Source: Corallococcus macrosporus (lineage in GTDB: Bacteria; Myxococcota; Myxococcia; Myxococcales; Myxococcaceae). Taken from it: a stretch of 64,000 nucleotides of DNA. The notes under the pieces are model-generated. The model saw only the letters and a list, made by a program, of their open reading frames with translations. It did no database searches and was not told the DNA's origin. The stretch spans positions 124,001 through 188,000 of the forward strand of contig NZ_JAFIMU010000008.1 of NCBI RefSeq assembly GCF_017302985.1, in the 5' to 3' direction. Both the position numbers and the translations under genes were made by a program. The first letter of the stretch is position 1, and each line of letters opens with the position of its first letter. Positions 40,529-49,819 of this stretch are shown in pieces.

Positions 40529-41239
40529 TCAGGCCTGGGGTGAGGACGTCTGAGTGGGCGAGATGACCCCGCAGGCGAGGTTCGCCGGCACCGCCTCGTT
40601 CAGCTTCTTGGGGGGCGGCAGGTTGAGGTTGCCCATCAGTTGCACGAAGGCCTCGCGCTCGCGGTGGGCGGCGCGCGTGTTGTAGCGCTTCTCCTCCGCG
40701 ATGCTGCTCTGGGTGTGGCCGTTGTAGTCGTGGGCCGGGTACACCTCGGTGTCGTCCGGGAGTTTGAAGAGCACACCGGTGATGGAGTCGAAGAGGTGCC
40801 CGGCGTCCCCATTCTGGAAGTCCGTGCGGCCGGCGGAGCGCACCAGCAGGGCGTCCCCGGTGAAGACGCGCTTGCCTATCCGGTAGCTGACGCTGTCGTC
40901 GGTGTGGCCGGGCGTCTCGAGCACCTCCACCCGCAGGGCGCCCAGTGCCAGCACGTCACCGTGGTGCACCTTGACGTCCACGCAGGGTGCCCCCCGGTGG
41001 CTGGCCACCACGCGCGCGCCGGTGCGCTGGCGCAGCAGCCCCGCGGCCGTCACGTGGTCCGCATGCACGTGCGTGTCCAGCACGTATTCGAGCGTGAGGT
41101 CCAGTTCCTTCAGCAGGTTCAGGTCGCGCTCGACCTGCTCATGCACCGGGTCGATGAGCAGCGCCTGGCGGGTGCGCCCGTCGGCGAGGAGATAGGTGTA
41201 GGTGGAGCTTTCGGAGTCGAAGAGCTGACGGAAGAGCAT
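40529..41239 (-). CDS. ETHE1/Blh-type persulfide dioxygenase (MBL fold)
   Basis: 236 residues, metallo-beta-lactamase fold with the ETHE1 metal site: THVHADHVTA, ETPGHTDDSVSY and YPAHDYNGHT. Such enzymes oxidise glutathione persulfide to sulfite. In other bacteria (Blh) they sit with YeeE/YedE and TauE/SafE genes in H2S-detoxification operons, as here. ATG 41239 has GGAGAAGGAAACCCCC upstream. Convergent with the CPLC gene. A class-1 promoter-like site lies at 41284-41309, about 45 bases before the start. Confidence 0.85.
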   Translation of the reverse strand: MLFRQLFDSESSTYTYLLADGRTRQALLIDPVHEQVERDLNLLKELDLTLEYVLDTHVHADHVTAAGLLRQRTGARVVASHRGAPCVDVKVHHGDVLALGALRVEVLETPGHTDDSVSYRIGKRVFTGDALLVRSAGRTDFQNGDAGHLFDSITGVLFKLPDDTEVYPAHDYNGHTQSSIAEEKRYNTRAAHREREAFVQLMGNLNLPPPKKLNEAVPANLACGVISPTQTSSPQA

Positions 41240-41348: not shown

Positions 41349-41807
41349 CTAGTAGCGGATGACCTGGTAGCCCTCGGCCACGAGGCGGGAGAGCTCGGCG
41401 ACGCCGTTCGGCACCACCTCGGCGGCCGGCTGCAGCTTCTTCGGGTCGATGTCGTACTTCTTCAGCGCGCTGCCGCAGGCCACCAGCCGCACCCCGGCGG
41501 CCCTGGCCTTCTCGGCCGCCTGCCTCACGCTTTCCGGCACGGCCTTCACGGTGGGGTCCAGCGACACGATGGAGCGCCCGTAGCTCAACCACACCACGTC
41601 CGAGAGGTAGCCGGACTCCTTGGCCGCCACCGCGTGGCGGAAGCTGCTGGTGAGGGTGCCCACGTCCTCGAGCCCGGTGGTGGCCACGAAGACGAGCTTG
41701 CCCTTCTGCGCGGGCCGCGGCGGCCGCGCATCCGGGCTGGCGGCGAGCGCCGCGGCGGGCACGGCGAGGAGGAGTGCGGCGAGCAGGGTGAAGAGGGTGC
41801 GGTGCAT
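41349..41807 (-). CDS. Exported DsrE/DsrF-like sulfur-relay protein
   Basis: 152 residues with a Sec signal peptide (ALAA cut near residue 22) and a DsrE-like domain: GKLVFVATTGLEDVGTLTSS, then VRLVACGSALKKYDI containing the conserved sulfur-binding Cys. Periplasmic DsrE-like proteins carry sulfur or help mobilise zero-valent sulfur. AGGAGCCCC before ATG 41807 is a good ribosome site. It is 44 bases downstream of the SoxB-like gene on the same strand. Confidence 0.75.
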   Translation of the reverse strand: MHRTLFTLLAALLLAVPAAALAASPDARPPRPAQKGKLVFVATTGLEDVGTLTSSFRHAVAAKESGYLSDVVWLSYGRSIVSLDPTVKAVPESVRQAAEKARAAGVRLVACGSALKKYDIDPKKLQPAAEVVPNGVAELSRLVAEGYQVIRY

Positions 41808-41851: not shown

Positions 41852-43474
41852 TCAGGGCAGTTGCTGGGTGCGCAGCACGGGCGGCAGGTCCTCCCCGACC
41901 GCGCGCCCCTGCAATCCACCGTTCAGCTCGGGACGCGTGGCGAGGTAGCGGCGCACGGCCTCGTGCGCATCGACCTCCAGGGTGCGTGTCTCCGTCGCGC
42001 CGGGAATGCGGCAGAGCATGTCGGGCGTGTCTCCCTCGCGCTCGCAGGCGGCCACGGTGTACACACGGGCTTCGTCCAGCGGCTCGCCGTTCACCTCCGC
42101 CGAGAGGAGCCGCTGGCCCTTGGGCGCATTCGCGCGAAAGCGCAGCGTCATCCCCGAGGGCCGAGGCAGCCAGCCGCCGAAGCGCTTCTCGGCGTCCCGC
42201 GCGAAGACGTTCTCCAGCTCCTGCTCCCAGAAGTCACGCAGCTGCTTGCCGGTGAGCTTGCCTGTCTTCACCGGGTTCACCACTGGGAAGAAGTTCCACA
42301 GGTCCGCCTCGCGCACCGGCCCGGGAAGGAGCGGCGTGCCGAAGCGGAAGCCATTGGACAGGCCAATCTCGGTCCCACCGGCGGCGCGGATGGCATCCGC
42401 GAGCATGTTGTCGAGCGGGTTCTCCACCACGGCGTAGCGCGCGAGCGTCACCCCGGTGTGCCCCACCTCCTTGGACAGCCGCGGCCCCAGGGGTGCGAGC
42501 GCGGCGTCCACCAGCCTCACGACTTCGGGACGCTCCGGGAAGCGCGCGGCCGTCAGCTCGAGAAGCTCCCACTTCCTCTCCACCACCTTGCCGCCCTCGA
42601 CCCACAGGTCCAGCCGGCCGAGGAATGAGCCAAAGGCTCCGGGCTCCACCACCCAGCTGCCTCCGCGCTCGATGGGCACGTAGGTGCGCTCGTGGGTGTC
42701 GGCGGACAGGTGCGCGTCCACGCCAGGCACCTGGTCCGCGAGCGCCACCGCCTTGGAGAGGCCCACGTGCGTCATCAGCAGCACGACGTCCGCGCGCTCC
42801 TGCTCGCGCACCTCGCGCACCAGGGCGGGCAGCGCCTCGGGGCCGTCGTAGCGCAGGCCCTCGCTGTAGCCGGGGGGCTGCCGGCGCGGCACGTCCGGGT
42901 CCGTGAAGCCGACGACGGCGATCCTCACGCCGGCCACCTCCCTCAACAAATAGGGGGAGAAGAGCCGCTCGCCGCTCGCCGCATCGCGCAGGTTGGCGGC
43001 GAAGAGCGGGTAGTTGAGCTGGCGGGCACGCTCGCGCAGCACCCCGGGGCCGTAGGCCACCTCCCAGTTGCCGGGCACCGCGCCCTGCAGCCCCAGCGCG
43101 TTGAGCGGCGCGATCAGCGCCGCCCCCTCGGTGAGCGCCGCCTCGCCCGAGCCCTGCAATGTGTCGCCAGCGTCCAGCACCAACACGTCGCCACCGCGCT
43201 CACTCCTGATGCGCTCGATGGCCGCGGCCACGCGTGCGAAGCCGCCGGCCATCTCGATGCGCTCCTCGCCATCGCGCCAGAACAGCTCCGGGTGCGCGCG
43301 CAGCTGCGCGTGCAGATCCGCGACGTAGAGGATGGTCACCTGACGGCGCGAGCCCTGGGCCGAAGTGGCCCCGGTGGGGGCGGGCGGTGTAGCCGCGGGG
43401 CGGAGCACCGTGCGCGCACAGCCGGCGGCGAACCACACGGCAGCGAGTCCGAGGAGGAGGAGTCGACGGTACAT
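41852..43474 (-). CDS. SoxB-like 5'-nucleotidase-family lipoprotein
   Basis: 540 residues. Lipobox FAAGC (Cys19). Metallophosphatase domain with ADLHAQL, LDAGDTLQGSG, GNWEVAYG, THVGLS and SADTHERTY, then a 5'-nucleotidase C-terminal domain (VVNPVKTGKLTGKQLRDFW). In 5'-nucleotidases the third block is GNHE; in SoxB thiosulfohydrolases it is GHWE. Here GNWE combines the two, so the assignment leans to SoxB. No SoxYZ, SoxAX or SoxCD is near, so its usual carrier-bound substrate would be missing locally. Fits the island as a sulfate-releasing hydrolase. Confidence 0.68.
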   Translation of the reverse strand: MYRRLLLLGLAAVWFAAGCARTVLRPAATPPAPTGATSAQGSRRQVTILYVADLHAQLRAHPELFWRDGEERIEMAGGFARVAAAIERIRSERGGDVLVLDAGDTLQGSGEAALTEGAALIAPLNALGLQGAVPGNWEVAYGPGVLRERARQLNYPLFAANLRDAASGERLFSPYLLREVAGVRIAVVGFTDPDVPRRQPPGYSEGLRYDGPEALPALVREVREQERADVVLLMTHVGLSKAVALADQVPGVDAHLSADTHERTYVPIERGGSWVVEPGAFGSFLGRLDLWVEGGKVVERKWELLELTAARFPERPEVVRLVDAALAPLGPRLSKEVGHTGVTLARYAVVENPLDNMLADAIRAAGGTEIGLSNGFRFGTPLLPGPVREADLWNFFPVVNPVKTGKLTGKQLRDFWEQELENVFARDAEKRFGGWLPRPSGMTLRFRANAPKGQRLLSAEVNGEPLDEARVYTVAACEREGDTPDMLCRIPGATETRTLEVDAHEAVRRYLATRPELNGGLQGRAVGEDLPPVLRTQQLP

Positions 43475-43536: not shown

Positions 43537-44781
43537 CTAGCCGGGCCAGGCCTGCGTGCCCCAGGGCAGCGCGGGCGCCACCTGCGCGCAGGCACCCGCG
43601 CCGATGGCCGCGAGCCCCTGTGCGAGCGCCGCCTGCGACTGCTCGCCAACGCGGCGCGACACCTCGCGACCGCCGGCCTCGAGGAAGAGGAAGGTGGGCA
43701 CGCCGCGAATGCCGTGTCGGGCCGCGGCCTGGCGGCCCTCCGCGCTGCCCACGTCCACGAGCAGCACGTCCACGTCGCCGCGCGCCGCGCAGGACTGCTG
43801 CAGCCGCGCCACCACGGGCTTCATCCGCTGGCACACCGGGCAGCTCTGGCTCACGAACTCCACCATCGTCGGGCGCTGCAGGAGCGCCAGCGGTGCGCTG
43901 CCCGCGGGCAGCGTTGGAGTGAACGTGGGCTCCGGCAACGCGCATGCCGTCGTGCCCCCACTCCCGGGGGTACATGCGGCTGTCTCGGAGGCGCCGAGGT
44001 CCGCATCCCGCTCCGGCGTGCGGGAGGTGAGCGTCGCGGCGGGCGCGGCCTGCGCCGCCACCGGCGCGGGCTCCAGAGGACTGTTCGTCGGGGTGAGCAG
44101 CGCAAGCGAGTCGGTGAGGAGCAGCAACCCCAGCGCCGCGAGCAGTGCGCCCGTGGCAAGCTCCGCCTTGCGCAGGTGGCGCTTCATCCCGTCCATCCAG
44201 CGCAGCACGAGGGGCGCGGCGGCGGCCGCGGCCAACAGCGGCACGGAGAGCCCCAGCGCATAGGTGCCCAGGTAGAGCGCCCCCGTCATGGGCTCCGAGG
44301 TGGAGGCGGCCGTGTACGTGAGCACCCCGCCGAGCACCGGCCCGATGCAGGGCGTCCAGCCCAGGGCGAAGGCGCCACCGAAGAGGAAGGCGCTCAGCAC
44401 GTTGCCGCCGCGCTGCACGCGCGTGAGCCACGGACGCCCCTCGCGCTCGAGCCACGGCACCTGGATGACACCCAGCTGCTTGAGCCCGAAGAGGAAGAGC
44501 AGGAGCCCGCCCAGTTGCAGCACCCAGCCGCGGTGCTGCGCGAGCGCGCCGCCCACTGCGCTCGCCGCCATGCCCAGCGCCACGAACACCGTGGAGAGGC
44601 CCAGCGAGAAGGCCACCGCCACGCCCCAGGGCCGGCGCACGGGCCCGCCCGCCTCGCCGCGCAACTGCGGCAGCGACACGCCCGCGAGGAAGGAGAGGTA
44701 GAGCGGGATGAGCGGCAGCACGCAGGGGGAGACGAAGGTGAGCAGCCCCGCGAGGAAGATGCCTGGAAGCCCCAGACTCAT
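43537..44781 (-). CDS. CcdA-type thiol exporter fused to thioredoxin (DsbD-like)
   Basis: 414 residues. Six hydrophobic helices (about 5-235) with the CcdA/DsbD motifs FVSPCVLPLIP and LGWTPCIGPVLG, each holding one of the paired redox Cys, followed by a Pro/Ala/Thr-rich linker (235-285) and a thioredoxin domain with CPVC (about 300-405, cis-Pro GVPTFLF). It should move electrons across the inner membrane to periplasmic partners such as the TlpA-like lipoprotein. A class-2 promoter-like site lies about 60 bases upstream (44841-44868). Start ATG 44781. Confidence 0.82.
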   Translation of the reverse strand: MSLGLPGIFLAGLLTFVSPCVLPLIPLYLSFLAGVSLPQLRGEAGGPVRRPWGVAVAFSLGLSTVFVALGMAASAVGGALAQHRGWVLQLGGLLLFLFGLKQLGVIQVPWLEREGRPWLTRVQRGGNVLSAFLFGGAFALGWTPCIGPVLGGVLTYTAASTSEPMTGALYLGTYALGLSVPLLAAAAAAPLVLRWMDGMKRHLRKAELATGALLAALGLLLLTDSLALLTPTNSPLEPAPVAAQAAPAATLTSRTPERDADLGASETAACTPGSGGTTACALPEPTFTPTLPAGSAPLALLQRPTMVEFVSQSCPVCQRMKPVVARLQQSCAARGDVDVLLVDVGSAEGRQAAARHGIRGVPTFLFLEAGGREVSRRVGEQSQAALAQGLAAIGAGACAQVAPALPWGTQAWPG

Positions 44782-44943: not shown

Positions 44944-45450
44944 ATGCGCCGCCACCGCCTGTCCCCTGCCCTGCTGCCCGCCCTCGCGCTCTGCATGCTG
45001 CTCAGCGCCTGCGACCGCTACGACCGGCCCAACCTCCCCGTGCCCGAGAGCTTCTCGGCGCGCACGCTGGAGGGCCGCGGCCTTGAGCGCGCGGGCCTGC
45101 TGGGCAAGCCCTGGGTGGTGAGCATCTGGGCACCAGGTTGATACGCCTGTGCTCGGAAGTTGCCCGAGCTGGACGCGGTACGCCGCGAGTACGAGCCGAA
45201 GGGGGTGGGCTTCCTCGCGCTCTCGCTCAACCCGAGCGAGGAGCGAACGGTGCGCGAGGCGGCGAGGCTCGGCCTGGGCATGACGCTCGCCATCGCGCAG
45301 GGCGAGGTGCTCGGCCCGCTGCACGTGTCCACCGTGCCCGCTACGGTCTACATCGACCGGCACGGCGTGGTGGTGGCCGCCATCAGCGGCGAGCGCGACC
45401 GGGCCTTCCACACGCGGCGCGTGAAGGCACTGCTCGCAGGGAGCCCGTAG
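44944..45450 (+). CDS. TlpA-like thioredoxin lipoprotein with in-frame TGA at active site (candidate selenoprotein)
   Basis: 168 residues if TGA at 45139-45141 (residue 66) is read through. Lipobox MLLSAC near residue 23; then VVSIWAPG-TGA-YACARKLPELD. In TlpA/ResA this loop is W-x-x-x-C-x-x-C, so TGA sits exactly at the first, nucleophilic Cys of CxxC, giving UYAC. Downstream the frame stays open and keeps VGFLALSLNP and cis-Pro STVPATVYIDRHG to a normal C-terminus. Read as a stop, the product would be a 65-residue stub. A 6-bp hairpin follows the TGA. Alternatives are a nonsense mutation or sequencing error. Full length otherwise normal for TlpA. Confidence 0.6.
45151..45169 (+). promoter_or_regulatory. 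Hairpin just after TGA, possible bacterial SECIS
   Basis: GCTCGG and CCGAGC form a perfect 6-bp stem with a seven-base loop AAGTTGC, starting 10 bases after the TGA. The loop G is 18 bases past the TGA, inside the range known for bacterial SECIS elements, although it is third in the loop rather than first or second. The stem lies in coding sequence, as bacterial SECIS elements do. Hairpins of this size are common in GC-rich DNA. Confidence 0.35.
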
Positions 45451-45533: not shown

Positions 45534-46432
45534 CTACCCGATGCGCAGCAGGCGGATGAGGCCCCACGCCATGCGCGCGAGTCCTCCAAAGCCCAGCAGG
45601 CCCGCGTAGATGACCTTCATGCCGGCCTTGCGGATCATCTGGAAGGGCGTGGCCAGGCCCATGGCCGCCATCGCAATCACCATCAGGAACACACTGGTGG
45701 TGGACAGGCCCGCACGCAGCGAGGGCGCGAGCAGCACCACGCGGGTGAGCTTCACCCGCGTGCCCAGGTCACCGGCCTCGGTGCCCCAACTGAAGGCGGC
45801 CGCCATCACCTGCGCCACCTCGTGCGGCGTGGAGCCGGAGAGCACGGCGAGCTGCAGGGTGCTGAAGCCCAGCAGGGGCCCCGCGAACACGTAGAGGAGC
45901 ACGCCCGCGGTGCCCAGGATGCCGCACAGCCCCACGGCCAGCGTGGTGTCCTCCTCGTCCGCGCGCGTCACGCTGCTGGCCGCCACCACCGCGCTCGCCC
46001 GCACACCGAGGTGCCCACGGCGAGCAGCATGGCGAGCCTCGAGGGCACGCCGAAGCGGCGCGCCAGCCACGCGATGCCCGCGATGCCCACGGCGATGACG
46101 GCCAGGTCCAGCAGCAGGATGCGCAGCCCCGCCTTGGCCACGAGACCGAAGTCCAGCCGCGCCCCCATCAGCACGATGCCCAGGCGCAGCACCGTCTTCG
46201 CCGAGAGGCGGTTGACCTCGGCGAGCACCTGCGGCAGCCCCATCACCGCGCACAAGGCACGTCCGATAAGCAGCGCCACGGTGAGGGGCCCCACCACCTT
46301 GAGCCCCGGCAGCGTGGCGAGCCAGTAGCTCACGATGGCGAGCGCCACGGCCAGCAGCATGCCGGGGGCGCGCACGCGCCAGGGAGAGGAAGCGCTCGCA
46401 GGCGCGGCGGAGACGACAGGGGTGGGCGTCAT
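45534..46432 (-). pseudogene. YeiH-type transporter with a one-base frameshift
   Basis: Nine to ten hydrophobic helices of the YeiH/UPF0324 (putative sulfate exporter) family. The N-terminal 145 residues (MTPTP... to LLAVGTSVCG) are in one frame and the rest (SAVVAASSVTRADEEDTTLAVGLC onward) in another. The family reads TSVCGASAVVA across this point, so one G is missing at about 45997-46002. Total length 899 is one base short of 300 codons. Either a recent mutation, programmed shift or assembly error. Confidence 0.7.
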
Positions 46433-46485
46433 CGGTGGTCCAGGCCGGGGTTGAAAAACGCGTCGCGGGGGCCCACCCGTGCCGC

Positions 46486-47274
46486 CTACGGCTCATCCGG
46501 AGTCGAGAGCGCGCTCAGCAGCACCGAGTCCCCCAGCTCCGACACCGCGATGGTGACGTCGTCGCCGCGCGCCACCACGCAGATGCGCTCACCCACGGGC
46601 CCCTTCGTGCAGCGCGGTCCCTTCTGCGCGAAAGCGAGGCCCTGCGCGCCGGCGCTCGAGCCCCTCGGGGGCGCGAACAGCGTGAGGGCGTGGTTGCCGT
46701 AGCGGTAGAGCAAGGAGATGGTGATGCGGCCATCGAGCCTGCAGCGCCGCGCGCCCAGCAGCCGCGCGCCAGGCACGTCCGGTACCTCGACCTCCTCGCC
46801 CGTCTGGGCGCGCGCCCACGCGCGCACGGCCGTCCGGTCCGAGGATTCGAACTCGCAGGGCTGCGCGCGGGAGAAGGCCCGCAGGTGGTGGCGCTCGAGA
46901 TCCGCCGCCAGCACCTCGTTGAAGCCGCGCGGCCATCCCGTCCACAGCAGGCCCACCGCGAGGAGCAGCGCGGCCGCGGCGGCGGCGAGGCGGCGCATGG
47001 GCGCGGAACGCGGCAGGTGGACGCGGGCGGCAGCGGAGGGCGGGCCTCCACCCTCGCCGAGTACCTCGATGCGCGTCCGCAGCCGCCGAGGCACGGTGGG
47101 CAGGGACGCGGCCCCCCGCAGCGCCATGCGCAGCCCGGCGTAGCGCTCGGCGAGTTGACGGCACGCTGCGCACGCGGCCAGGTGCGCCTCGGCGCGCGCG
47201 CTCTCCGAGGCGCTGGCCTCGCCGTCGAAGTACTCCGAGATCCTCTCGCGCCACGTCTCGCTACATCCGCTCAC
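46486..47274 (-). CDS. Membrane-anchored zinc-finger anti-sigma factor
   Basis: 262 residues. N-terminal ZAS-type zinc site: EAHLAACAACRQL (HxxxCxxC, about 25-37), then a transmembrane helix near residues 90-112 (RRLAAAAAALLLAVGLLWTGW) and a periplasmic domain with several Cys (about 120-262: QPCEFE, RRCRLDG, PRCTKG, ERICVVA). GTG 47274 overlaps the sigma gene's end by 14 bases, with GGGGAG upstream, so the pair is translationally coupled. Likely holds the sigma factor until thiol or sulfur stress outside the membrane. Confidence 0.78.
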   Translation of the reverse strand: MSGCSETWRERISEYFDGEASASESARAEAHLAACAACRQLAERYAGLRMALRGAASLPTVPRRLRTRIEVLGEGGGPPSAAARVHLPRSAPMRRLAAAAAALLLAVGLLWTGWPRGFNEVLAADLERHHLRAFSRAQPCEFESSDRTAVRAWARAQTGEEVEVPDVPGARLLGARRCRLDGRITISLLYRYGNHALTLFAPPRGSSAGAQGLAFAQKGPRCTKGPVGERICVVARGDDVTIAVSELGDSVLLSALSTPDEP

Positions 47275-47885: not shown

Positions 47886-48341
47886 TCAGCGCTGGGGGAC
47901 GGGCGCCTGGACACGGGCGGGCACGGGGCGCTTCTCCCAGAGCTGGAAGAGCAGCATGCCGCCCACCATTGCCGCGACGAAGAGCAGCGCCGGGTTCGCG
48001 CCGGAGCCCACGGAGGTGAAGGCGGGACCCGGGCAATAGCCGGCGAGCCCCCAGCCCGCGCCGAAGAGCGCAGCGCCGGCGACCAGCCGCGCGTCCGGGC
48101 GTGCGTTGCCGAGCGCCGGGAAGGTGGGCGCGAGCACGGGCGCGCGGCGCTGGCGCAGGATGAGCCGGCGCAGCAGTGCGTAGGTCCCCATCGCGCCGGC
48201 CATGACGAAGGCGAGGCCGGGCTGCCAGTCACCCGCCACATCGAGGAAGCCCACCACCTTGGCGGGGTCGGTCATGCCGCCCAGCCCCAGGCCGAGCGAG
48301 AAGAGGATGCCGGCGAGCCCGGCCATCAGTGCGGCCTTCAT
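47886..48341 (-). CDS. YeeE/YedE half-transporter (DUF6691-like)
   Basis: 151 residues, about four hydrophobic helices. GLGLGGMTDPAKVVGFLD and GLAGYCPGPAFTSVG with a conserved Cys are hallmarks of the second YeeE/YedE half, a family that takes up thiosulfate or other sulfur compounds through Cys relay. One base separates it from the first half at 48343, so both halves are one operon and likely one transporter. Confidence 0.82.
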   Translation of the reverse strand: MKAALMAGLAGILFSLGLGLGGMTDPAKVVGFLDVAGDWQPGLAFVMAGAMGTYALLRRLILRQRRAPVLAPTFPALGNARPDARLVAGAALFGAGWGLAGYCPGPAFTSVGSGANPALLFVAAMVGGMLLFQLWEKRPVPARVQAPVPQR

Positions 48342-48342
48342 C

Positions 48343-48765
48343 TCAGAGACCTCCGAGAACGTGGTGGACGAGGAACACGGTGAGCGCGCCCGTCACCATG
48401 AAGGTGCCGGTCGCGACGAAAGAGCGCAGCGAGCCGCGGGCCAGACCGCACACGCCATGGCCGCTGGTGCAGCCATTGCCCAGGCGCGTGCCGAAGCCCA
48501 CCAGCAGCCCCGCGAGCACCGTGAGGCCGGCGCCCGTCACCACCGGGGCGCCGAACACCTGTGGAAACAGCGCGCGCAGCAGCAGTCCGCCGCCCACGAG
48601 CCCGCCGACGAATGCGGCGCGCCAGGCGAGTTCGCCGCGCGGGGGCAGCAGCAGTCCGCCTGCGATGCCGCTGATGCCGGCAATGCGACCATTGAAGAGG
48701 AGGAGCAGGCTCGAGGCGAGCCCGATGAGAATGCCGCCGAGCAGGGGTGGGAGGAACTGTGTCAC
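48343..48765 (-). CDS. YeeE/YedE half-transporter
   Basis: 140 residues, about four hydrophobic helices with the signature [13 protein letters not shown], where the two Cys carry sulfur during transport. Partners with the following half. Upstream by 52 bases lies the shortened TauE/SafE gene on the same strand, so this is a TauE-YeeE-YedE order as in Blh operons. ATG 48765. Confidence 0.85.
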
Positions 48766-48817: not shown

Positions 48818-49177
48818 TCAGCGCTGCACGGCCGCGGCGGCAGCCGGCGCGGCGTGCGCGGTCGAGTCGAGCAACACGCCGCGGTTCTTGAAGAGGATGA
48901 AGGCGCCCATCAGCACGAGGACGAGGGAGAAGGCGCGCTTGAGGGCCGCCTGGGAGACGAAGCGCACGAGGGTGGTTCCCAAGAGGATGCCCGCGGCCGC
49001 GAGGGCGGTGAACTCGCCCAGCAGCCCCCAGGGCACCCGCACCTGACCGAGGTAGCCCGCGGCGGGCAGCCCCAGCACGTACACGAAGATGGGAACGGTG
49101 AGGATGGAGCCGCCGCCGCCGAGCAAGCCGAGGGCGAGGCCGACGAGGGCAGCGAGCGAGAGGCCGAGGACCAGCAC
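48818..49177 (-). CDS. Shortened TauE/SafE-type exporter
   Basis: 119 residues from GTG 49177 (GGAG eight bases upstream). The N-terminal [23 protein letters not shown] is typical of the first TauE/SafE repeat, then the sequence jumps to [33 protein letters not shown] and a C-terminal helix. Usual length is about 250, so roughly the middle half is missing in frame. It may be nonfunctional, or work as a dimer of halves. Class-1 site upstream at 49263-49288. Confidence 0.65.
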
Positions 49178-49262
49178 GGCAGGACTCCAGGAGCAGAGGA
49201 GGGGCGCTGCCCCCCCCCGCGGCGAACGGGTGTGCGGCACCCACGGGCCGCTTCGCCCATGA

Positions 49263-49288
49263 GAGCCAGGACAGGCGAAAAGGGATTC
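49263..49288 (-). promoter_or_regulatory. Class-1 promoter-like site GAAT-N16-TGGCTC (TauE/YeeE unit)
   Basis: Leftward: GGGGGTGAAT, 16 bases, TGGCTC. About 85 bases before GTG 49177. Confidence 0.55.
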
Positions 49289-49339
49289 ACCCCCGCGGTC
49301 CGGAGACGCGAAGGCAGCCCGCGCCGACGCACACAGCCA

Positions 49340-49698
49340 CTACAGGCGCCGGCCAAAGCGGCGCAGGCGCAGGCTGTTGAGCAGGACGGAGACGCTGGAC
49401 AGCGACATGGCGGCCGAGGCGACGACCGGCGACAGCTGCCAGCCCGTCCGCGAGCCGGGAGGTCCGCCACGGCGACGAGACCCGCGAGCCCGCCGTCCAC
49501 GGCCACGAAGAAGGGCGTGCGGCCCAGCGCGCAGGGGCAGGCCAGCACCAGCACCGCGACGAAGCGCTCCACGGCCGTGGCGAGGCCCGTGGCGCTCGGG
49601 TCCACCCCCAGCCACGCCGCGAGCGTGACGAGCGCGATGCCCAGCACCACGGGGACGAAGATGCCGGCCACCGTGTCCGCCAGGCGCGCGATGGGCGC
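49340..49698 (-). pseudogene. Heavy-metal P1B-type ATPase remnant
   Basis: APIARLADTVAGIFVPVVLG and VAVLVLACPCALG (the ion-binding CPC helix, near 49530) are in one frame, then the sequence skips to TPFFVAVDGGLAGLVAVADLP from the P-domain end, then shifts frame to LSPVVASAAMSLSSVSVLLNSLRLRRFGR, the last helix. DKTGT and GDGIND are both absent, so about 350 residues are lost in two deletions. Dead copper/zinc ATPase, CopA-like. Confidence 0.78.
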
Positions 49699-49819
49699 GC
49701 GGCTGCACCGCGCGCGAAAGGCGCTCAAGACGGGACTGGAGCAGGTGTGCGGCGGGTGCGCTGCCGCGGGCTGCCTGGACTGCGGCTGCGCGAAGAAGGC
49801 CGCGGCGCTGGCGCGGTAG
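49696..49819 (+). pseudogene. 3' end of an ECF sigma gene
   Basis: The frame ARLHRARKALKTGLEQVCGG then CAAAGCLDCGC and stop at 49817-49819 resembles the end of ECF sigma region 4 with a Cys-rich tail. It begins abruptly where the opposite-strand ATPase remnant ends, so it was cut by the same rearrangement. No region 2 remains. Confidence 0.5.

Follow-up and report, generated by a model that had tools for sequence, protein, structure and literature searches.

A predicted UxxC selenoprotein lipoprotein of the ResA/TlpA type in myxobacteria, with an in-frame UGA and a conserved SECIS-like stem-loop

A gene for a thioredoxin-like lipoprotein in the window (the whole 64,000-nucleotide stretch of Corallococcus macrosporus DNA analyzed here) carries an in-frame TGA at the position of the first, nucleophilic Cys of a CxxC motif, which raises the question of whether this codon specifies selenocysteine (Sec), ends a decaying gene, or results from a sequencing error. 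The TGA is the sole interruption of a frame that is open on both sides and, as claimed in the original prediction of a UxxC selenoprotein at this locus, reading through it yields a full-length lipoprotein which harbors the motif WAPG-U-YACARKLPEL (Table 1).

The window protein scored above the Pfam cut-off for AhpC-TSA (PF00578; 32.3 bits against a cut-off of 26) and for Redoxin (PF08534; 29.9 bits), and its best sequence relative of solved structure is a ResA protein (85 bits). The structure predicted from an input of 13 family rows (mean pLDDT of 92.4) displays a thioredoxin fold in which the redox pair sits where the first long helix begins, residue 66 being located immediately before helix 67-86, and the closest solved folds of this model are likewise ResA proteins (PDB 4nmu and 1st9; TM score of 0.73 by query length). 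An export signal or membrane anchor is indicated by a predicted N-terminal helix (residues 10 to 24) and by the near-invariant Cys23 of the sequence LSAC, which we take, following the general lipobox rule, to be the lipobox and its lipidation site. Among NCBIfam models, ResA again gave the window protein its highest score (45.9 bits; cut-off of 170).

Table 1. Features of the putative selenoprotein locus and its surroundings in the window (positions are those of the window)
Feature	Position	Strand	Basis
Predicted selenoprotein lipoprotein gene, 168 aa with TGA read through, ResA/TlpA-like	44944..45450	+	Frame, PF00578, structure model, fold search
Lipobox Cys23 codon (LSAC), predicted lipidation site	45010..45012	+	Nearly invariant column, family alignment
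Predicted Sec66 codon TGA, first position of UxxC	45139..45141	+	Reading frame and family alignment
Predicted resolving Cys69 codon of UxxC	45148..45150	+	Invariant column, family alignment
SECIS-like stem-loop, apical GUU; stem of 6 bp here, 7 bp in most relatives	45151..45169	+	
Lys72 codon AAG, no seventh stem pair; Glu in the other 27 Sec members	45157..45159	+	Hairpin and alignment comparison
CcdA/DsbD-type membrane domain and thioredoxin fusion, divergent neighbor	43537..44781	-	DsbD_TM 74.8 bits, Thioredoxin 46.4 bits
SoxB/UshA-like metallophosphoesterase, sulfur cluster	41852..43474	-	Best NCBIfam model SoxB, 264.6 bits, below cut-off of 550
DsrE-like protein, sulfur cluster	41349..41807	-	Domain search
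Metallo-beta-lactamase-fold (MBL) protein, persulfide-dioxygenase-like	40529..41239	-	NCBIfam bifunctional sulfur transferase/dioxygenase, 125.5 bits, cut-off of 625
YedE-type half (DUF6691)	47886..48341	-	Domain search; also in G104, G113
YeeE-type half (Sulf_transp), Cys form	48343..48765	-	27 bits at cut-off of 27; also in G104, G113

A first contig scan with the window protein as the query found no relative. With the same protein as the query, matches (E value of 1e-8) were obtained in 31 of 59 genomes, the window genome included, and a single internal TGA was present in a match in 10 genomes besides that of the window among the 59 searched. A profile of 13 rows, applied to 195 Myxococcota genomes (again with the window genome) with up to 19 first-look candidates scored per genome, delineated a sharp family, members of which (at 137.7 bits or more) were found in 33 of the 195 genomes, a count to be read as at least 33; the next match scored 96.4 bits. 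One of the genomes with the family gene is labelled Myxococcus xanthus. The original prediction had called for an alignment of homologues, and these mostly carry TGA rather than TGC: the codon at the site is TGA in 28 of the 33 members, whose genomes belong to four families (labels f1, f2, f3, and f9), and Cys in five. A scan of named genomes recovered 18 loci, among which all 11 myxobacterial loci possessed the TGA and six of the seven non-myxobacterial loci possessed CxxC, the seventh being unaligned at the motif. The possibility of a lone sequencing error at 45139-45141 is rejected, as the same TGA is present in 27 other genomes, and its likelihood is negligible.

It might be supposed instead that an ordinary nonsense mutation turned a CxxC thioredoxin-like lipoprotein gene into a pseudogene, particularly as TGA is one base away from the Cys codons and as the gene next door is decayed. 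The decay described in the original prediction was indeed found: the YeiH gene (Cons_hypoth698; 45534-46496, minus strand) is broken by an internal frame change and the loss of an internal stretch, its frames being uninterrupted, at 307 amino acids or more, in three relatives (G104, G113, and G134). A nonsense mutation is, however, difficult to reconcile with a TGA common to 28 genomes of four families, or with the state of the sequence behind it, which, judged from sequence comparison, is under purifying selection: dN/dS downstream of the TGA was 0.12 to 0.20 in five of six pairs of relatives of the window copy, and 0.35 in the sixth pair, which has six differences. The values before the TGA (0 to 0.98) derive from 99 bases with few differences and say little. 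On the basis of the shared TGA, together with the loop codons and the covarying hairpin detailed below, the nonsense mutation is rejected as highly improbable.

The machinery for Sec incorporation, which the original prediction had proposed as a check, is present in the window genome (9.81 Mb in 17 contigs), where a tRNA-Sec (70.5 bits; identified by ARAGORN as tRNA-SeC, anticodon tca), SelA (557.5 bits), SelB (321.8 bits), and SelD (389.8 bits) were all detected above their cut-offs. The formate dehydrogenase alpha gene of this genome (G000:C7:2384531-2387563) harbors an in-frame TGA followed by a hairpin with a GGUCU loop, and there is therefore probably at least one other Sec-decoding client. 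In this hairpin, the distance from the UGA to the GU exceeds that in the lipoprotein gene by two bases.

While selB and selD were searched for in the window genome, the search for selA and tRNA-Sec covered all 195 Myxococcota genomes, among which selA was found in 150 (E value of 1e-60) and tRNA-Sec in 138 (E value of 1e-9, with stricter filters by which weak matches are lost). Set against the codon at the TGA site, as raw counts uncorrected for relatedness, selA was found in all 28 TGA genomes and two of the five Cys genomes, and tRNA-Sec in 27 and three of these, respectively; the single TGA genome in which tRNA-Sec was not found, G055, is 86% complete. Both genes are retained in the Cys genomes G020 and G051, and neither was found in the Cys genomes G124 and G153 (the latter 87% complete), such that the Cys forms of these two (loci L102 and L104, respectively) are as expected if loss of the machinery led to the replacement of Sec by Cys. 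A comparison of selA with Sec through independent pairs on the tree yielded three pairs (median p of 0.25) and has no power.

The 6-bp hairpin behind the TGA, also part of the original prediction, proved to be real. It has a loop of AAGUUGC and an energy of -9.1 kcal/mol, and it surpasses synonymous recodings of the same peptide in pairs (P = 0.007) and in energy (P = 0.006; 1,000 shuffles). All 28 TGA genes were found to possess a stem-loop at offsets 12 to 30 from the U of the UGA. In a covariation analysis of the 19 distinct sequences among these 28, 97.0% of the stem cells were paired, seven cells were changed on both sides, and covariation was 0.201, each of these values being reached by 0 of 500 shuffles; two other measures of the five were not unusual, being reached by 149 and 132 of 500 shuffles. 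Slid registers attained at most 58.6% pairing and a covariation of at most 0.069, and one slid register ties the true register on pairs changed on both sides (count of 2). Because the peptide could force part of the pairing, codon choice was also tested: recoding of the same peptide resulted in fewer pairs at a P value of 0.02 or lower in 24 of the 28 TGA rows, the exceptions being G149 and G137 (0.15 to 0.16) and G042 and G047 (0.057).

The loop itself is marked by rare codons. Where it encodes Leu, the codon is TTG in 23 of 23 TGA rows, as opposed to 6 of the 273 Leu codons that follow the hairpin in these genes, and where it encodes Phe, the codon is TTT in 5 of 5 rows, as opposed to 1 of 95 Phe codons in the same regions. 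The corresponding codons of the five Cys genes are TTC, CTC, GCC, CTG, and GTG, with no TTG or TTT among them. The fixation of these rare codons in the loop, coupled with their absence from the Cys genes, therefore argues that the loop GUU is kept as RNA. A chance hairpin is accordingly rejected, given the conserved TGA, the TTG/TTT loop codons, and the covarying stem.

The bacterial SECIS (bSECIS) model (PMC13188914) specifies a loop of 3 to 9 bases, a stem of 4 to 16 bp, a G within the first two loop bases, a spacing of 16 to 37 bases, and an energy of -7.5 kcal/mol or lower; it fits most elements, and some bacterial SECIS lie outside it. Among the 28 TGA hairpins, 27 match this model, that of the window being the lone failure, with its G in third position of the loop and a spacing of 15 instead of 16, each one base off. 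The reservation expressed in the original prediction, that the loop G is misplaced, thus holds for the window copy but not for the family. A search of positions 45100-45250 against Rfam at an E value of 10 matched no SECIS model and returned four weak, unrelated matches. The hairpins also bear upon the notion that a near-cognate tRNA reads through the UGA by inserting Trp or Cys in place of Sec; a match of 27 of the 28 hairpins to the bSECIS model, the occurrence of selA in every TGA genome, and the coincidence of the UGA with the redox nucleophile render such read-through very unlikely.

Because the relatives keep the UGA together with a matching RNA hairpin, we consider it very probable, from sequence comparison, that this UGA is read as Sec rather than as a stop and represents the Sec codon of this gene, a reading which includes weak decoding. 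The UxxC selenoprotein reading of the original prediction is supported by the 28 TGA homologues against five with Cys, by the Sec machinery, and by the conserved hairpin.

The decoding efficiency of the window copy is less sure than the nature of the family, as its hairpin narrowly fails the bSECIS model. The failure arises from a single base change in this copy, which has removed the seventh stem pair and replaced Glu with Lys72; this Glu, located three residues downstream of the second Cys and common, although not universal, in ResA/TlpA-like proteins, is present in the other 27 Sec members. Replacement of this Glu alters active-site properties of ResA and StoA (PMC3914529). It is conceivable, although rather improbable, that within a family of true selenoproteins the window copy is losing Sec decoding and perhaps yields mostly a 65-amino-acid product, a reading which in part overlaps with that of a weakly decoded Sec codon. 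It would be in line with the failure of this copy, alone among the 28, to match the model and to carry the Glu, with its dN/dS behind the TGA (0.43 to 0.50 against three relatives, above the values of the relatives' own pairs), and with the decay of the adjoining YeiH gene. Yet the frame is intact to its end, neither the TGA nor the GUU loop has been lost, the energy of the stem is within the -7.5 kcal/mol limit, some bacterial SECIS fall outside the model (PMC13188914), and the window branch of the tree (0.29) is approximately as long as the sister branch from the same node (0.25 + 0.02). We read the window copy as active but divergent, with a real chance of weak decoding.

Within the genus of the window strain, the gene was present in 2 of the 16 genomes searched, and in the tree the copy of Corallococcus sicarius groups with ten Myxococcus copies (support of 100/98), the window copy being sister to this group. 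This sparse occurrence, coupled with the position of the C. sicarius copy, suggests a transfer of the selenoprotein gene between genera. The tree, in which 14 of 36 inner branches are open, requires at least five changes between Sec and Cys over all 33 rows, or three over the 32 rows that remain without G051; a single Cys clade was not rejected (p-AU of 0.064), as assessed on four of the five Cys rows, excluding G051 with its long branch.

The predicted selenoprotein gene of the window is flanked by genes with links to sulfur and thiol chemistry (Table 1), a thioredoxin and a rhodanese-like protein being also encoded in the surroundings. None of eight neighbor proteins reached an NCBIfam cut-off, and their finer names are therefore given by resemblance. 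Across the 32 other neighborhoods searched, several of which were short and ended by contig ends, relatives of the CcdA-thioredoxin fusion with 66 to 67% identity were located near the selenoprotein gene in G104 (179 amino acids of match), G113, and G147, and with the window a neighbor of at least 66% identity was present in 4 of 33 neighborhoods; a weak relative (25% identity) was present in G020. SoxB-like and rhodanese-like genes were found in G104, G113, and G134, DsrE in G104 and G134, the MBL-fold gene in G113, and YeeE, YedE, and an anti-sigma gene in G104 and G113. As the 12 members of genus g41 (Myxococcus) displayed such genes in G134 and G147 only, apart from a 45-amino-acid match in G137, the sulfur cluster represents one setting and not the rule.

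Three further observations concern these neighborhoods. A gene that recurs close to the selenoprotein gene in seven genomes resembles, by eye, an acyltransferase gene. The YeeE half in the window possesses Cys (GCTSG) where a listed YeeE/YedE selenoprotein has GUxSG (motif in PMC13188914, Table 1). At 48910-49728 (minus strand), beside a TauE-like gene, pieces resembling a broken P-type ATPase are visible by eye, in agreement with the dead ATPase of the original prediction.

In the mechanism proposed here, the intragenic stem-loop at 45151-45169 would direct SelB and tRNA-Sec to read the UGA at 45139-45141 as Sec. The product is predicted to be an extracytoplasmic, lipid-anchored oxidoreductase of the thioredoxin fold, in which Sec66 would occupy the position at which ResA/TlpA proteins have their nucleophilic Cys, with Cys69 as the resolving thiol. 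A CcdA-type membrane carrier, represented here by the CcdA-thioredoxin fusion, may act as the donor that keeps the Sec lipoprotein reduced, and the latter may in turn pass electrons to an oxidized thiol or sulfur substrate outside the cytoplasm, with a possible tie to the neighboring sulfur genes. Such an extracytoplasmic reducing relay, from a CcdA-type carrier via the Sec lipoprotein to a target, is put forward tentatively, as a possibility suggested by analogy.

Selenoproteins of the UxxC type with related domains are listed among predictions in PMC13188914 (Table 1), namely a Prx-like thiol:disulfide oxidoreductase (PF00578), also reported in PMC1794560, a thiol-disulfide isomerase-like protein (cd02966), and a Redoxin family protein (PF08534). 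The predicted selenoprotein of the window resembles the first of these in its PF00578 domain above the curated cut-off and in its UxxC motif, a likeness which rests on domain and motif (the listed representative being WP_010940744.1 of Geobacter); it differs in being a myxobacterial lipoprotein, whereas the Deltaproteobacterial holders named in these sources are anaerobes. It is likened to the other two by description, through UxxC, its match to PF08534, and the ResA/TlpA-like fold class. The early cases came from a metagenome and from anaerobic Deltaproteobacteria (PMC1088965, PMC1794560), the isomerase-like selenoprotein being first listed from the Sargasso Sea metagenome (PMC1088965), and the 11 selenoproteins given for Anaeromyxobacter in PMC1794560 include none under this name. 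The string "Myxococc-" is absent from the main texts of PMC13188914, PMC9312934, and PMC12013277, and a search of the literature on myxobacterial selenoproteins and selenocysteine found no report of the family in myxobacteria among the papers listed, which is no proof of absence.

Among proteins of related function, ResA of Bacillus, an extracytoplasmic thiol-disulfide oxidoreductase, shares the fold but has CxxC in place of UxxC, and the window protein has Lys at the usual Glu position after the motif. The pneumococcal Etrx1 and Etrx2, with CcdA1 and CcdA2, offer the parallel of a surface thioredoxin-fold lipoprotein fed by a CcdA carrier, and they too are without Glu three places after the second Cys, although they are Cys enzymes of a Gram-positive organism with MsrAB2 as partner (PMC3914529). 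NF041054 (WAxxUGC_long) is ResA-like with Sec but is distinguished by its UGC motif and its model of 354 positions, and membership of the window protein was rejected (24.4 bits against a cut-off of 300). As UxxC thiol:disulfide selenoproteins have already been listed, the lipoprotein family adds to a known class.

Myxobacteria are, as a group, aerobic. Aerobic bacteria rarely retain selenoproteins (PMC13188914), and one Corallococcus strain has been described as aerobic (PMC9323933). These aerobic predators may operate a selenium-dependent relay at the outer face of the cytoplasmic membrane, running from CcdA-thioredoxin to the Sec lipoprotein and linked, in certain species, with a sulfur cluster (YeeE/YedE, SoxB-like, DsrE, and persulfide-dioxygenase-like), with several later replacements of Sec by Cys, including in lineages in which no Sec machinery was detected; we regard this wider scenario as speculative and, as it stands, rather unlikely to hold in full. 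None of the NCBIfam selenoprotein models reached its cut-off for the window protein, and annotation may therefore well cut the gene at the UGA, such that a selenoprotein found in Myxococcus, Corallococcus, and further myxobacteria will probably be overlooked. If the relay and the repeated replacement of Sec by Cys were true, the family would provide a natural series for what Sec buys over Cys in an oxidizing compartment. The Sec and Cys forms of the family, together with the overlapping hairpin, make the exchange of Sec for Cys directly testable.
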